A stretch of DNA of 64,000 bases, from NCBI GenBank assembly GCA_903864275.1, contig CAIPFE010000016.1, forward strand, positions 20,580-84,579. The letters run 5' to 3'. The notes beneath the pieces were generated by a model. That model made no database searches. It had not been told where the DNA came from and was given only the letters and a program-made list of their open reading frames with translations. The position numbers were made by a program, and so were the translations under genes. Position 1 is the stretch's first letter, and each line of letters opens with the position of its first letter. The stretch is from an uncultured Mucilaginibacter sp. Lineage in GTDB: Bacteria > Bacteroidota > Bacteroidia > Sphingobacteriales > Sphingobacteriaceae. Positions 9,100 through 54,223 of the stretch are shown one piece after another.

Positions 9100-10668
9100 T
9101 TATTTTTTCCATACCACCCAGTTATTAGGGGCAGTTGATGGCCGGTGTTTTTGCGGTGGAAACTTCAGGAATATAGCCGCTTCGCGGTCGCCCAGGGCGG
9201 CCGACCTGGTCCAGTCTGTTTTGGCGGCCACTTTATTATTTAATGAGTAATATAACCGCCCCCGCTCAAAATAAGCGCCGGCATTTGATGGGTTTAATTC
9301 AATAGCCTTTGTCAGGTCGCTCATTGCGGCAGGGTCATTTTTCACGGCTTCGTTGGCGTATCCCCTCATATAATACGCAATCGGGAGATTGACACTATCT
9401 GCAATTGCTTTATTCAGGTCGGGTATCGCGGCAACAACACGGTTCGTTTGCAGGTATAATATAGCGCGGTAATAGTAGGCTTCACTGTACGCCGGGTTTA
9501 TCGCAAGGGCCCTATTGAAGTCGGCCATCGCTTCAACATTTTGACGTAACGACACCCTGGCCACTCCACGACTAAAATAAGCTGACTCAACATCCGGCTT
9601 CAGGGAAATTGAACGATTCAAATCCTCAATGGCCCCCGCAAAATCATTCTTAGCTAATTTGGCGCAGCCACGGTCGTGATAGGCATTCGCATAATTCTGG
9701 TTTATGCTGATGGCTTTTGTAAAATCGACTATTGCCCCATCGGCATCATTAAGTTTTAGCTTCACTTCGGCCCTGTTATAATAAGCTTCTTCATTATTGG
9801 GGTTTAATACGATTGCCCTCCCCAGGTCGCTGCTTGCTTCGCCGAAATTACCCATTTTTGCATTTAACATACCTCGTTTTTCGTAGGCTTCCGCATATTT
9901 CGGGTCTATGGCGATCGCCTGGCTAAAATCGGTCAGCGCCTCATTATAATTATTAAGCTGGGCCCTTTGTATGCCCCTGAAAAAGTAGGCCATTGCAAGC
10001 TTAGGGTTTAAGGTTATGGCTTTACCGAAGTCGGCCATTGCACCGTAGCTATCTTTCAGGTTATCTTTTGAAATGCCGCGGTCAAGATATGCCTCGGGCA
10101 TTTCAGGATCGAGTTCAATGGCTTTATTCAGGTCGTCAAGTCCTCCCTTAAAATCAGCAAGTGCATTTTTTGAATTGCCCCTGTTGGTATAAGCGCTGGC
10201 GTCTTTAGGGTTCAGTTCCACTAATTTGTCAAAATCGGCGATAGCGCCTTTATAATCGCCCAGCCTGTTTTTTGAATTTCCCCTGTTCGTATAAGCATTG
10301 GGGCTTTTAGGGTTTAGCACAATGGCATGTTCACAATCGGCTATTGCGCCTTTAACGTCATTAGCGTTCAATTTTGCATAAGCCCGGTTTGAATAGGCAA
10401 TGTCGAGGTTGGGGTTTATCGCAATTTCTTTGTTAAATTCATCAATCGCGCCGGGATAATCAGCAAGCTGGATTTTAATAACTCCCCGGTAGTTATAAGC
10501 TTCAGTATTATTGGGATTTAATTCAATTTCCTTTGTAAAATAGTCAATTGCCCCATTATAATCCTGTTTGCCATATAATTCAACGCCTTTGTCAAAATAC
10601 TGGTCGTGGCTTTGGGCAATTGAGAATAATGGTAAAAAGAGGATGAAACAAAAAAGGGATCTTTTCAT
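9100..10668 (-). CDS. Secreted tetratricopeptide repeat protein (paralog of 11994..13514)
   Basis: About 13 consecutive TPRs of the form AYxNRGxxKxxLxDYxGAIADFxKAIxLNP; signal peptide. Confidence 0.9.
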   Translation of the reverse strand: MKRSLFCFILFLPLFSIAQSHDQYFDKGVELYGKQDYNGAIDYFTKEIELNPNNTEAYNYRGVIKIQLADYPGAIDEFNKEIAINPNLDIAYSNRAYAKLNANDVKGAIADCEHAIVLNPKSPNAYTNRGNSKNRLGDYKGAIADFDKLVELNPKDASAYTNRGNSKNALADFKGGLDDLNKAIELDPEMPEAYLDRGISKDNLKDSYGAMADFGKAITLNPKLAMAYFFRGIQRAQLNNYNEALTDFSQAIAIDPKYAEAYEKRGMLNAKMGNFGEASSDLGRAIVLNPNNEEAYYNRAEVKLKLNDADGAIVDFTKAISINQNYANAYHDRGCAKLAKNDFAGAIEDLNRSISLKPDVESAYFSRGVARVSLRQNVEAMADFNRALAINPAYSEAYYYRAILYLQTNRVVAAIPDLNKAIADSVNLPIAYYMRGYANEAVKNDPAAMSDLTKAIELNPSNAGAYFERGRLYYSLNNKVAAKTDWTRSAALGDREAAIFLKFPPQKHRPSTAPNNWVVWKK

Positions 10669-26909: not shown

Positions 26910-27686
26910 TTATTCGCCTGAAGCATGTTCATGCACGTGTTCTTCACGGAACAGTTTGGCGCTGAAGTAGTCGTTGTTCATGCGGCTGATGTTGGTCATT
27001 TTTATTTCTTTGGGGCATTCGGCCTCGCAGGCGCCGGTATTGGTGCAGTTGCCAAAGCCTTCGGCGTCCATTTGGGCAACCATAGCCTGCACCCTGCTGT
27101 AACGCTCGGGCTGGCCCTGGGGCAGCATACCCAGCTGGGTTACCTTTGCCGATACAAACAACATCGCCGAAGCGTTTTTACAGGCCGCCACACAAGCACC
27201 GCAGCCAATGCAGGTTGCGGAGTTGAAAGCCTCATCAGCGATAACTTTCGGGATAGGTATGGTATTGGCGTCAATAGTAACGCCGCTGTTTACCGAAACA
27301 AAGCCGCCAGCCTGCTGTATCCTGTCGAATGAGGAACGGTCAACCGCCAAATCCTTTATAACGGGGAATGCAGCCGCGCGCCATGGCTCAATCACGATGA
27401 TTTCGCCATCATGAAATGTACGCATGTGCAGCTGGCAGGTAGTGATAGCCGCCTTAGGCCCGTGCGGGTGCCCGTTGATGTATAGGGAGCACATCCCGCA
27501 AATACCTTCGCGGCAGTCGTGATCAAAATGTATAGGTTCCCCGCCGGTATGTATCAGGCCCTCATTCACCACATCCAGCATTTCGAGGAAGGACATATCC
27601 GGTGAAATGCCTTCGGCCTTATAGGTTACGAATGCGCCTTTGGTATCAGCATTTTTTTGCCGCCATACTTTCAGTGTTAAGTTCAT
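26910..27686 (-). CDS. sdhB: Succinate dehydrogenase/fumarate reductase iron-sulfur subunit
   Basis: [54 protein letters not shown]. Confidence 0.96.
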
Positions 27687-27696
27687 GTTTTTTTAG

Positions 27697-27850
27697 ATTT
27701 GAGATGTGAGATATGAGATGTGAGACTAAAAAGATCTTCACAACTCATACCTCACATCTATTTAAATTTTATTTTTTCCGAGGTCTTAAACGTGAGATTT
27801 TAGACCTTACAATCCCTCGTCCCATCTCATATCTCATATCTCACATCTAC
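27697..27850. repeat. Heptad repeat arrays (TGAGATR)n in inverted arrangement
   Basis: TTTGAGA TGTGAGA TATGAGA TGTGAGA on left; TCTCATA TCTCATA TCTCACA TCTA on right. Confidence 0.9.
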
Positions 27851-28200
27851 TCCTTCAATTTCTTCTGAAAAGCATAATTCATCTTTTGCAATTCATCTAT
27901 CTGCTGTAAAAGACCATCCAACAAGTCATTATCTAATAAACTTAATCTGTTTGATATTACCAACTGAGTTTGTAATTCGTACGAGGAACCATTTGCGATT
28001 CCTAAAAAATTACAAAATTCCTTGGGTGAATTTCGGCCTGCACCTTCAGCAATATTTGACGGGATAGAAACTGCCGATCTTCTGGCCTGGCTTGTTAAGC
28101 CGTACCTCTCTTCAGACGGAAAACTTGCCGTAGCTTTATAAACATTAACTGTTAAATCGATCGCTTTGTTCCAGATTTTCAGTTCCTTTAGATTGTGCAT
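27847..28200 (-). CDS. Four helix bundle protein (S23/IVP ribosomal-like)
   Basis: MHNLKELKIWNKAIDLTVNVYKATASFPSEERYGLTSQARRSAVSIPSNIAEGAGRNS. Confidence 0.93.
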   Translation of the reverse strand: MHNLKELKIWNKAIDLTVNVYKATASFPSEERYGLTSQARRSAVSIPSNIAEGAGRNSPKEFCNFLGIANGSSYELQTQLVISNRLSLLDNDLLDGLLQQIDELQKMNYAFQKKLKE

Positions 28201-28343
28201 GCTATTTGAGATTTTAGATGTGAGATATGAGAAGTGAGACTTGCAAAGTCTTACAGCTTATCTTTATCTTATTAACACCTAATTTATTAATTTCTTATTT
28301 ACAACATTAAGCTTAAACCACAATTTGAGATTTTGAACCACCT

Positions 28344-28434
28344 CATATCTAATATCTAATATCTAATATCTCACATCTCATATCTCATATCTCAAATCTC
28401 AAATCTCATATCTCACATCTCACATCTCACATCT
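28344..28434. repeat. Thirteen-unit heptad array (C/A)ANATCT; minus strand TGAGATN
   Basis: CATATCT AATATCT AATATCT AATATCT CACATCT CATATCT CATATCT CAAATCT CAAATCT CATATCT CACATCT CACATCT CACATCT. Confidence 0.95.
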
Positions 28435-29008
28435 TCTTCTCCCCAAACCCTTCACAATACGTATTTGTGTTTTCTATTAAGAAGCCGGCTTCCAAATCAA
28501 TATCGTTTTTACTTTCTTTACTACCCCAGTGAAATATTTTTTCGAAAAATGGCAGCCATTTACTATTTTCAATCCCTTTATAAAAATATACTTCGTGCTC
28601 TTTTTCTTTTAAGCTCATTTCGTATAAAATTTCATCGTGCGCGGTAATGTTCATGGCGTTAAAATGCCTTTTCATCCTGATATACTCGCACACATTGCCG
28701 CTTTCCAAATTTCCGGCAAAGTAAAACGGCATAAACCAACCAATTACATAACAACTTGCGCTGATATTTTTACCGATAATATGGTATTTCAGCACGTACC
28801 ATTTTGAAACCGGCACCTGGTACAAGTTCATCAGCTTTAAAACTTCCGCCCTGTGGTTCCATTCGTCAATTTCAATTTGCCTGATAGCCTTCTTTTCTTC
28901 TACGTCTTTTACCGATCCTGCGTGGCCCTGGTAAGCAAAGGCCGCCGCTTTTTCGGCTGAATATGCTTGTTTTAATAAGTTCACCAATACCTTATCCTCA
29001 AGGAGCAT
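28427..29008 (-). CDS. Ferritin-like / COQ7-like di-iron protein
   Basis: Two EXXH motifs (EWNH, EKEH) plus EKAAAFAYQGHAG helix; MxxEDKxLVNLLKQAYSAEKAAAFAY. Confidence 0.7.
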   Translation of the reverse strand: MLLEDKVLVNLLKQAYSAEKAAAFAYQGHAGSVKDVEEKKAIRQIEIDEWNHRAEVLKLMNLYQVPVSKWYVLKYHIIGKNISASCYVIGWFMPFYFAGNLESGNVCEYIRMKRHFNAMNITAHDEILYEMSLKEKEHEVYFYKGIENSKWLPFFEKIFHWGSKESKNDIDLEAGFLIENTNTYCEGFGEKKM

Positions 29009-29018
29009 GTTTATCGTT

Positions 29019-30953
29019 TTACTTATAACTGCGTTGCGTCAGGTGCACAAACTCAAAATCCAGCATTTCTTTATTCAATACTTCCGGCTGATTATCTCCT
29101 TTGTACTCCCATGCGGCTACGAAAGCAAAATGTTCATCATCACGTAAAGCCTCGCCTTCCGGTGTTTGCGATTCGAGGCGGAAATGCCCGCCGCACGATT
29201 CTTTGCGCATCAGGGCATCATCAACCATTAGCTCACCCAGTTCAAGGAAGTCGGCTACGCGGCCGGCTTTTTCAAGGGCAGGGTTTACTTCTTCGTTTTC
29301 TCCAACCACGATAGCGTTTTTCCAGAAATCGGCGCGTAAAGCCTGTATCAGGCCTTTTGCCTTTGTCAGGCCTTCTTCAGTGCGGGCCATGCCGCAATAT
29401 TCCCACATAATATGGCCAAGATCGCGGTGGTATTCATTCACCGTTTTGGTGCCTTTGAGCGCTAAAAATTTATTGATCCGGGCAATAACATCCTGTTTTG
29501 TTTTTTCGAAAGCGGGATGACTTGCATCAACCGGTTTAGGGCCTATTTGTGCGAGGTAATCGCCTAGCGTATAAGGGATCACAAAGTAACCATCGGCCAG
29601 GCCCTGCATCAGCGCTGAAGCGCCCAGTCGGTTAGCGCCGTGATCGCTGAAGTTACATTCACCCAGCGCGTACAGGCCGGGTATGTTGGTGCTTAAATTA
29701 TAATCGACCCACAGGCCGCCCATCGTATAATGTACGGCCGGGTAAATGCGCATAGGTTGCTTGTAGGGGTCTTCGTCGGTAATTTGATAATACATATCAA
29801 ACAGGTTGCCGTATTTGGCGGATACTGCATCCTTCCCCAAACGATGTATCGCATCGGCAAAATCAAGGAACACGGCAAAACCCGAACTTCCTACGCCGCG
29901 CCCTTCATCAACCATCTCCTTGGCGTTGCGCGACGCCACATCACGTGGCACAAGGTTACCGAATGATGGATATTTTCTTTCCAGGAAATAGTCCCGGTCT
30001 TCCTCTTTCACCTGGTCGGCTTTGATCGCGCCTTTGCGCAATTGTTCGGCAACGGCTACCGTTTTTGGCGCCCAAACACGGCCATCATTACGTAACGACT
30101 CCGACATCAACGTGAGCTTAGATTGGTGGTCGCCCGTTACCGGGATGCAGGTTGGGTGAATTTGGGTATAGCAAGGGTTAGCAAAAAACGCGCCCCGCTT
30201 ATGGGCCCTCCAGGCTGCAGTCACGTTTGAACCTATGGCGTTTGTAGATAAATAAAATACATTGCCATAACCGCCGGTGCAAAGCAACACGGCGTGGCCG
30301 GTATGGGTTTCCACCTTGCCATTTATCAGGCTGCGGGTAACAATTCCCTTGGCCTGGCCGTCAATGGTCACCACATCCAGCATTTCGCTGCGGGTGTACA
30401 TTTTTACTTTTCCTAAATGGATTTGGCGATTCAAGGCCGAGTATGCGCCTAATAATAATTGCTGCCCGGTTTGTCCCCTCGCATAAAAAGTCCGTGATAC
30501 CTGTGCGCCGCCGAAGGAACGGTTATCCAGCAGGCCGCCATATTCGCGGGCAAAAGGTACGCCCTGCGCCACACACTGGTCGATGATGTTTACCGATACT
30601 TCGGCCATCCGGTACACGTTTCCTTCGCGGGAGCGGTAATCGCCGCCTTTTATCGTATCATAAAACAAACGGTAAATACTGTCGCCGTCATTCTGGTAAT
30701 TTTTGGCGGCATTGATCCCCCCCTGCGCTGCAATAGAGTGCGCACGGCGCGGACTATCCTGGAAACAAAATGCCTTCACATTATAGCCCAGTTCGGCCAG
30801 CGAAGCCGCGGCCGACGCCCCTGCCAGGCCGGTACCTACAACAATAACATCGTATTTACGCTTATTGGCAGGGTTAACCAGCTTTATGTTGAACTTATGC
30901 TTGCTCCATTTTTCGGCTAATGGACCGGGAGGGATTTTAGCGTCTAAAGTCAT
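29019..30953 (-). CDS. sdhA: Fumarate reductase/succinate dehydrogenase flavoprotein subunit
   Basis: [51 protein letters not shown]. Confidence 0.96.
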
Positions 30954-30975
30954 GTTTTTTAATTTACGATTTTAG

Positions 30976-31044
30976 ATTTACGAATTACGAATTCAGATTT
31001 TTGAATTTTTACAATTCGTAAATCTGAATTCGTAATTCGTAAAT
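30976..31044. repeat. 25-bp perfect inverted repeat with 19-nt loop between sdhC and sdhA
   Basis: ATTTACGAATTACGAATTCAGATTT ... AAATCTGAATTCGTAATTCGTAAAT. Confidence 0.95.
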
Positions 31045-51167: not shown

Positions 51168-51255
51168 CCGTCGCCGTGGGTGTCCTGCAAGTTTAAATTT
51201 ACCCATAAATCTTTTTTTGCACCAGGGCACCATGGAGGATTCCCTACACCACTCA

Positions 51256-51287
51256 CACCTTTCACCTTTAACCTTTCGCCCTTCACC
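51256..51287. repeat. Heptad array, inverted copy of the array inside the ATP-grasp CDS
   Basis: CACCTTTCACCTTTAACCTTTCGCCCTTCACC; 24 nt are the exact reverse complement of 52915..52938. Confidence 0.92.
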
Positions 51288-51460: not shown

Positions 51461-53068
51461 ATGCAGGAATCAGCTTATTTTGACAAATACAACCCAATTA
51501 ATGGTGTTTGGGACGAAATGTATGGGGCGGATGCCAGCGTTCGCGCTCATTATCGTAAAGTAATTGAATATATTTCGGGCGAATCGGCGGATGACCTCAA
51601 TAAAAAAGAGGAATTGGCCAAACGCCTGTTCATGAGCCAGGGCATTACCTTCACGGTGTACAACAGCGGCGAGGGGATCGAGAAGATATTCCCGTTTGAT
51701 ATTATCCCCCGCATCATCACCGCCGAAGAATGGGCTTTTGTGGAGAAGGGCATCAAGCAGCGCCTCACTGCGCTCAACCTGTTCCTGAAAGATGTTTACC
51801 ATAACCAGTTTATTATTAAGGACGGCATTGTGCCGATAGATATTATCTACTCGTGCCCGCATTTTCTGCGCGAGATGTACCAACTGCAGGTGCCCTATGA
51901 TATTTATGTGCACATCAGCGGCATCGACATCATAAGGGACCACGACGGCACCTTTTATGTGCTGGAAGATAACCTGCGCACTCCCTCGGGCGTGAGCTAT
52001 ATGCTGGAGAACCGCGAGATCACCAAACGGCTGTTCCCCGATTTGCTGCCGCAGTGCGGGGTACGAAGCGTAACTGAATATCCTACCATATTATATAAAA
52101 ATTTGCTGGCCCTTTCGCCGCGGCAGATACATAACCCTACTATTGTGCTGTTAACGCCGGGTATTTACAACTCGGCCTATTTTGAGCATACCACCCTGGC
52201 CCGCCTGATGGGCGTTGAGCTGGTGGAGGGCCGCGACCTTGTGGTGAACAATCATAAAGTGTACATGAAAACCACTACCGGCCTGCAGCAGGTGGATGTG
52301 ATCTATCGCCGGGTGGATGACGAATACCTTGACCCGCTGGTGTTTAACCCGGGCAGCATGCTTGGGGTGGCCGGTATTATGGGCGCTTACCGCAAGGGTA
52401 ATGTGGCTATCGTAAACGCAACAGGCACCGGCGTGGCTGATGATAAGGCGGTGTATGTGTACGTGCCCGAAATGATAAAATATTACTTAAACGAGGAGCC
52501 GCTGCTAAAAAACGTGCCCACCCTGCAGCTCGGGAATATGGACGAACGTGCGCATGTTTTTGAGAACATCAATAAAATGGTGATCAAAAAAACCAATGGA
52601 AGCGGGGGTTACGGGATGCTGATGGGCCATGCTTCAACAGAGCAGGAGATCGAAGATTATAAGCTGGAAATACTAAAAGACCCGCGTAATTTTATCGCGC
52701 AGCCTACTATAAGCCTGTCGGCCGCACCCTGTTATATGCAAGGCGAGCTGCAGCCCCGCCGAATTGACTTGCGGCCTTATGCCTTGTATGGTCCGGCCGG
52801 CATTGAGATAGTACCCGGCGGCTTAACCCGCGTGGCGCTGAAAGAAGGTTCGCTGGTGGTAAATAGTTCACAAGGGGGTGGGAGTAAGGATACATGGGTA
52901 CTGGGCGCGTTGGAGGTGAAGGGCGAAAGGTTAAAGGTTAAAGGTGAGCTTAAGACGCAGGAAGGAAAAGGCGAAAGGTTAAAAGCGAAAGGTGAACCCA
53001 AGGCGGAAGAGAAGGTTAAAGCGGAGAGTTTAAAGCCGAAGAAGGAGAGGAGGAAGCAGCTGTTTTGA
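51461..53068 (+). CDS. Circularly permuted type 2 ATP-grasp protein with repeat-derived C-terminal tail
   Basis: YDIYVHISGIDIIRDHDGTFYVLEDNLRTPSGVSYMLENR; IDLRPYALYG; SSQGGGSKDTWVL then KGERLKVKGE tail. Confidence 0.92.
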   Translation: MQESAYFDKYNPINGVWDEMYGADASVRAHYRKVIEYISGESADDLNKKEELAKRLFMSQGITFTVYNSGEGIEKIFPFDIIPRIITAEEWAFVEKGIKQRLTALNLFLKDVYHNQFIIKDGIVPIDIIYSCPHFLREMYQLQVPYDIYVHISGIDIIRDHDGTFYVLEDNLRTPSGVSYMLENREITKRLFPDLLPQCGVRSVTEYPTILYKNLLALSPRQIHNPTIVLLTPGIYNSAYFEHTTLARLMGVELVEGRDLVVNNHKVYMKTTTGLQQVDVIYRRVDDEYLDPLVFNPGSMLGVAGIMGAYRKGNVAIVNATGTGVADDKAVYVYVPEMIKYYLNEEPLLKNVPTLQLGNMDERAHVFENINKMVIKKTNGSGGYGMLMGHASTEQEIEDYKLEILKDPRNFIAQPTISLSAAPCYMQGELQPRRIDLRPYALYGPAGIEIVPGGLTRVALKEGSLVVNSSQGGGSKDTWVLGALEVKGERLKVKGELKTQEGKGERLKAKGEPKAEEKVKAESLKPKKERRKQLF

Positions 53069-54097: not shown

Positions 54098-54223
54098 TTG
54101 GAGTCCGGAAGTCCGGAAGTCGGAAAGTCCGGAAGAAGAAAAAAGTTAAAGATAGTTTAGGACATGCGTGGAGTAGCTGATAAAATCACTAATTCACTAA
54201 ATCAATAATTTATACTTATAAAT

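Follow-up and report, generated by a model that had tools for sequence, protein, structure and literature searches.

The window, a stretch of 64,000 nucleotides from an uncultured Mucilaginibacter sp., contains an sdhC-sdhA-sdhB cluster in which sdhA (29019 to 30953; NF005749, E = 0) and sdhB (26910 to 27686; NF005746, 2.9e-128) are host operon genes separated by a ferritin-like open reading frame (ORF) and an element built around a gene for a 23S rRNA intervening-sequence protein (IVP), all on the minus strand. The ferritin-like ORF (28427 to 29008; 193 amino acids), which is the upstream neighbor of the element, gave no match in Pfam and NCBIfam searches and is an optional gene of the sdhA-sdhB gap, present in some congeners only (it was noted in relatives L192, L213, and L219). 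The IVP gene (27847 to 28200) encodes a protein of 117 amino acids that belongs to PF05635, 23S_rRNA_IVP (3e-39; 133.9 bits against a cutoff of 33.8), and to TIGR02436, four helix bundle protein (4.7e-38; 129.8 bits against a cutoff of 24). Between sdhC and sdhA, Tandem Repeats Finder (TRF) and the sequence itself reveal a solo inverted pair whose units are of a different family (TTACGAA...TTCGTAA; 30957 to 31042).

The end of the ferritin-like ORF carries a minus-strand heptad array (TGAGATR/TTAGATA; 28342 to 28434), for which TRF gives a period of 7, 13.3 copies, 91% matches, and a score of 123, the second highest in the window. The top-scoring tandem repeat of the window is a 102-bp repeat of two copies with 77% matches, located within an ORF (10166 to 10354). 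The original prediction quoted the letters of the array exactly as they read on the minus strand (12 full heptads and one partial one) and rightly called its units degenerate, but it placed the start of the array precisely at the stop codon of the ferritin-like gene. The in-phase start lies 5 nt farther upstream (AGATG at 28434 to 28430, followed by TGA at 28429 to 28427), so the array overlaps the end of the ORF.

The array is real, but it is not free-standing: its unit is shared by three further minus-strand arrays in the same gap. The original prediction noticed neither the inverted partner nor the IVP gene, which are what the array goes with. An inverted array (CTCAYAT on the minus strand; 28204 to 28243; TRF and RNA fold) pairs with 28342 to 28434 and stops 3 nt short of the IVP start codon, a direct array (TGAGATR; 27824 to 27848; TRF and sequence) begins where the IVP gene ends, and a downstream (3') inverted arm (27695 to 27725; TRF and RNA folds) stands directly before sdhB. 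This last arm has two alternative partners: the array at 27824 to 27848 and the outer array, in which case the stem encloses the IVP ORF. The array at the end of the ferritin-like gene is the upstream (5') arm of an element in which inverted complementary heptad arrays flank the IVP gene, with sdhB directly downstream.

The RNA folds of the upstream pair (28200 to 28436), the downstream pair (27690 to 27852), and the whole element (27690 to 28436) have z scores of -7.05, -7.44, and -7.01, respectively, against shuffles. Stem folding proves no RNA role, because inverted arms yield stems trivially, and covariation in the one alignment made, at rpsD-rpoA, was weak (2 of 12 pairs), which counts against reading the locus as an element. 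Strong folds would also be seen under the strongest alternative, according to which the arrays form RNA hairpins between cistrons, as terminators or as processing or stability stems, under selection for a host function, with IVP as a passenger or a self-regulating user. We regard host hairpins as unlikely.

In the genome of 6.03 Mb and 63 contigs, (TGAGATN)x3 has 118 matches, compared with 0 for a reversed-pattern control; genome-wide counts were obtained from pattern searches and a 400-kb contig sample. Long runs of near-identical TGAGATG heptads occupy the end of contig C9 (176423 to 176540) and the start of contig C17 (2 to 112), and because one contig ends and the other begins in such runs, the assembly seems to be broken at long TGAGATG arrays. 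The genome has ten PF05635 genes, and reading of their flanks revealed short-repeat arrays around all ten, with the units TGAGATR, GTTCATR, GTCCATR, GTTGTAA, GTGAGTG, TTCATTGG, GTGTGA, AATTTGAA, TTTCGGA, and AATATCG. By local-alignment score, nine of the ten resident genes have complementary arms, the exception being L037, with a six-base unit.

The same arrangement was looked for in a set of 109 IVP loci, mostly of Bacteroidota and picked by IVP only, 37 of them from this genome and its relatives and 72 from GTDB genomes. Complementary arms (score of at least 26) occur at 86 of the 109 IVP genes (79%) and at 37 of 415 other genes in the same loci (9%; Fisher p = 6e-47), and host hairpins leave unexplained why arms should be nine times commoner at IVP genes than at other genes. 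Among lags 4 to 12, lag 7 is the sole strongly elevated period in the IVP flanks (mean best score of 15.04 of 21, versus 10.54 in shuffles), with scores of at least 17 of 21 in 68 of 218 IVP flanks but only 3 of 212 control windows. The heptads have AG as a common anchor, with A at 0.77 and G at 0.92, whereas arms that were shuffled and phased in the same way reach 0.53 for each base. G exceeds C in 80 of the 86 upstream arms, so the polarity is nearly fixed, with the AG strand upstream and the CT strand downstream. IVP genes are codirectional with both neighbors in 98 of 108 cases (91%); among gene triples of these loci, the figure is 62% (p = 6e-10).

These regularities bear on neutral replication slippage, by which heptad microsatellites would have arisen in spacer DNA. 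While the differences in copy number among sites and species and the long arrays at the ends of C9 and C17 are compatible with slippage, it cannot give complementary inverted partners, an AG anchor with a single period across families, or linkage to IVP sequence, and we consider it highly improbable as an account of the arrays. As a sole cause, slippage is contradicted by the inverted partners and the IVP linkage; it may lengthen arrays, for example, the 13-unit one.

The function first proposed for the array was that of an all-frame translational stop cassette. The underlying arithmetic holds, in that three tandem units of 7 nt place stops in all three frames (7 mod 3), a property already noted for TAACTGA heptamers (MacGregor 2015; PMC4679880). 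The expected enrichment near stop codons was also seen: of 24 lag-7 arrays in the window and a further 400 kb of the genome, 12 are no more than 10 bp from the stop codon of a gene, whereas 5.6 would be so if the arrays were placed in these gaps at random (binomial p = 0.004). Likewise, 41% of the 86 upstream arms contain all-frame stops, compared with 19% after base shuffling. However, 9% of these arms are without any stop, the families AGAATCAAGAGTCAAG, AAGAGCC, AAGTACC, and GACACAAG have no stop codon in their units, and the partner arm, as the reverse complement, is stop-poor and stands before start codons. Because stop-free families exist and arms are predicted by IVP genes rather than by gene ends generally, the cassette is not a general function of the arrays, and we give it very little credence.

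The heptad unit goes with the protein. IVP identity and arm similarity are correlated across all pairs of loci (Mantel r = 0.47; 0 of 2,000 permutations as high) and also across non-syntenic pairs, which have no other homologous ORF in common, synteny for the relatives being judged on 1.5-kb flanks only (r = 0.33; 0 of 2,000 permutations as high). A unit is held in common by 68% of non-syntenic pairs with at least 70% IVP identity (n = 22, many of which belong to the TGAGATR subfamily and hence are not independent) and by 0 to 4% of those below 50%. Such covariation of unit and IVP across non-syntenic loci is left unexplained by host hairpins. Among 61 congeneric genomes, arrays of unit B (AGTATCAAGTANYNAGTA) are present in 16 of the 17 with IVP-B, two of which have truncated copies only, and in 12 of the 44 without it (p = 2e-6). 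TGAGATN arrays showed no association with orthologues of the IVP of the window in 61 genomes (8 of 9 genomes with the orthologue and 36 of 52 without; p = 0.42), and since array presence does not track IVP in this case, the result counts against the element reading.

Covariation of unit and protein would also be expected if the heptads were DNA operators through which IVP, as a repressor or activator, controls its own gene, the solo arrays being its regulon, and the position of an array directly upstream of the IVP start would suit an operator. Such autoregulation appears quite unlikely to us, because the inverted arm downstream is no less constant than the upstream one, solo arrays lie between the stop and start codons of housekeeping operons, and very many unit families would be needed.

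Most TGAGATN sites that were inspected are solo inverted pairs, consisting of a TGAGAT arm, an unconserved spacer, and an ATCTCA arm without an ORF; several are found in the rpsM-rpsK-rpsD-rpoA-rplQ cluster. The tight fit of solo arms between the stop and start codons of cotranscribed genes is in favor of host hairpins. In 464 kb of the genome, 30 of 54 arrays match resident IVP units, compared with 6 for ten foreign units (p = 1e-6), and this excess of resident units among solo arrays is not explained by host hairpins. The remaining 24 of the 54 arrays match no resident IVP unit, which counts against the element reading. Orphan units AAAGGTN and AGTCCGAA, for which there is no matching resident IVP, occur in the window (51255 to 51284, 52914 to 52947, and 54098 to 54135) and in the sample of contig C14 (142150, 184316, and 247330); a congener (L067) has an IVP whose unit is AGTCCGAA.

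Presence and absence of these sequences differ between species. Depending on the species, the sdhA-sdhB gap of congeners holds an IVP gene with TGAGATR arms, the ferritin-like gene, or solo pairs of several other unit families. One congener has only 17 bp there, and the occurrence of near-empty gaps speaks against a hairpin that the host requires. Two kinds of allele are found at rpsD-rpoA: one of ~97 bp without an array, in about half of the species, and one of ~120 to 196 bp with an array that starts at the stop codon, in the rest. The array-free allele is also hairpin-like at this site, as host hairpins would predict. The array allele replaces native sequence and is not a clean insertion, and several sdhA-IVP-sdhB copies look vertically inherited; both observations weigh against the element reading. 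Nor did the comparisons reveal a target-site duplication or a recent jump, which likewise speaks against that reading.

Orthologues of the IVP are under purifying selection, with dN/dS of 0.04 to 0.12 in the pairs with unsaturated dS. Its homologues in the PDB, 2gsc and 2rld, have five chains each. We know of no catalytic domain in IVP, which counts against the element reading. The S23p of Xanthomonas, as cited in PMC4990558, is a homopentameric toroid of four-helix bundles. The literature that we searched gives no function for IVP/S23p, and a phage search found no IVP genes in phages.

The closest known counterpart is the intervening sequence (IVS) of 23S rRNA in Leptospira and Coxiella, likewise a short element with a PF05635 protein in an essential transcribed locus (PMC4990558). 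The IVS of Coxiella is reported to be 428 nt long, to have a 28-bp terminal stem, and to be excised by RNase III, with two or three tandem GACAGAT heptamers preceding its S23p ORF (PMC4990558). Complementary ends that form a stem around the ORF are common to the 23S rRNA IVS and to the element in the window. In contrast to the IVS, the latter lies outside rRNA, in an intercistronic gap of a protein operon, and has long tandem heptad arrays on both sides as well as many ORF-less solo pairs; its ORF is under strong purifying selection, whereas that of Coxiella is reported as decaying (PMC4990558). Rfam gave no match in the window or in 11 further loci, so the element is not a catalogued RNA. We have not filed it as an IVS, because it is located in sdhC-sdhA-sdhB and not in a 23S or 16S rRNA gene; it appears to be of the same nature but situated outside rRNA.

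In the RAYT (TnpA-REP) system, repeat and protein go together: the gene is single copy per family and flanked by inverted repeats, and there are many gene-less palindromic REP/REPIN copies. Gene-less palindromic copies elsewhere in the genome are likewise found here, which is a likeness of behavior and not membership. IVP is a small four-helix bundle and not a tyrosine (HUH) transposase, the only Pfam match of the ORF is PF05635, without a Y1/HUH transposase domain, and the repeats are tandem heptads. Another likeness is to the cyanobacterial STRR and the TAACTGA repeats, which, like the arrays described here, are tandem heptamers that lie between genes, close to start and stop codons (PMC4679880). 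TAACTGA heptamers occur in Beggiatoaceae, Cyanobacteria, and Bacteroidetes as direct repeats of one unit, and MacGregor 2015 makes no link to IVP/S23, the terms S23 and four helix being absent (PMC4679880). The literature searched names no agent behind intergenic heptamer repeats. Avd of the diversity-generating retroelements has a four-helix fold homologous to PF05635 (PMC10053308); neither a reverse transcriptase nor a template or variable repeat was seen in or beside the element, whose neighbors are sdhA, the ferritin-like ORF, and sdhB.

Taken together, a family of IVS-like intercistronic elements, each with an IVP that recognizes its own AG-heptads, is in our judgment the probable explanation. 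The analysis shows the anatomy of the element, the near-universal presence of arms at IVP genes, the covariation of unit and protein, the placement in gene strings, the differences in presence between species, and purifying selection on the protein; the binding of heptads by IVP, the processing of the stem in RNA, and the mode of movement are inferred. The element consists of a heptad array, the IVP ORF, and an inverted heptad array, placed in sense orientation within the sdhC-sdhA-sdhB cluster, and such elements form many families, each characterized by an IVP and a heptad (AG[TA]nnnn) that belong to it alone. Solo arm pairs with the units of these families but no ORF are scattered across intergenic gaps. 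IVP may recognize the tandem heptads of its own family, with each protomer perhaps binding one, and the two arms may pair in the transcript to form a long stem around the ORF. RNase III could then cut out this stem, as has been demonstrated for the 23S rRNA IVS, and such excision would allow essential operons to tolerate the element.

A wider proposal, which we put forward tentatively and hold at somewhat less than even chances, is that small elements with an IVP gene and tandem-heptad termini form a widespread superfamily, which would take in the 23S rRNA IVSs and many of the heptamer repeats found between bacterial genes as special cases, with the IVP pentamer reading AG-heptads by a modular, family-variable protein-repeat code that drives the spread of solo arms. 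We found no earlier link between IVP and heptads in literature that excluded most subscription journals, and the claim of novelty is therefore provisional. Connecting each IVP gene with inverted heptad arrays of its own offers a testable ligand for the protein and a candidate maker for the repeats, and it places the 23S rRNA IVSs in a wider family. If the binding is true, the many pairs of IVP and unit are a natural data set for a nucleic acid recognition code. Within Mucilaginibacter, the element accounts for part of the turnover of intergenic sequence among operon genes.

In other phyla and classes, IVP genes lie in the arrangements guaB-IVP-guaA, odhB-IVP-lpd, and nuoB-IVP-nuoC, each with units of their own (gene names were assigned by eye from the flanking sequence). 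Two Betaproteobacteria (L137 and L149) have guaB-IVP-guaA with different heptad units and IVPs that are 46% identical, and thus the same site is occupied by a different family. IVP genes are also present on plasmids, in 28 records (H1 to H28) that are mostly cyanobacterial (Nostoc and Calothrix), a group known for STRR heptamer repeats.
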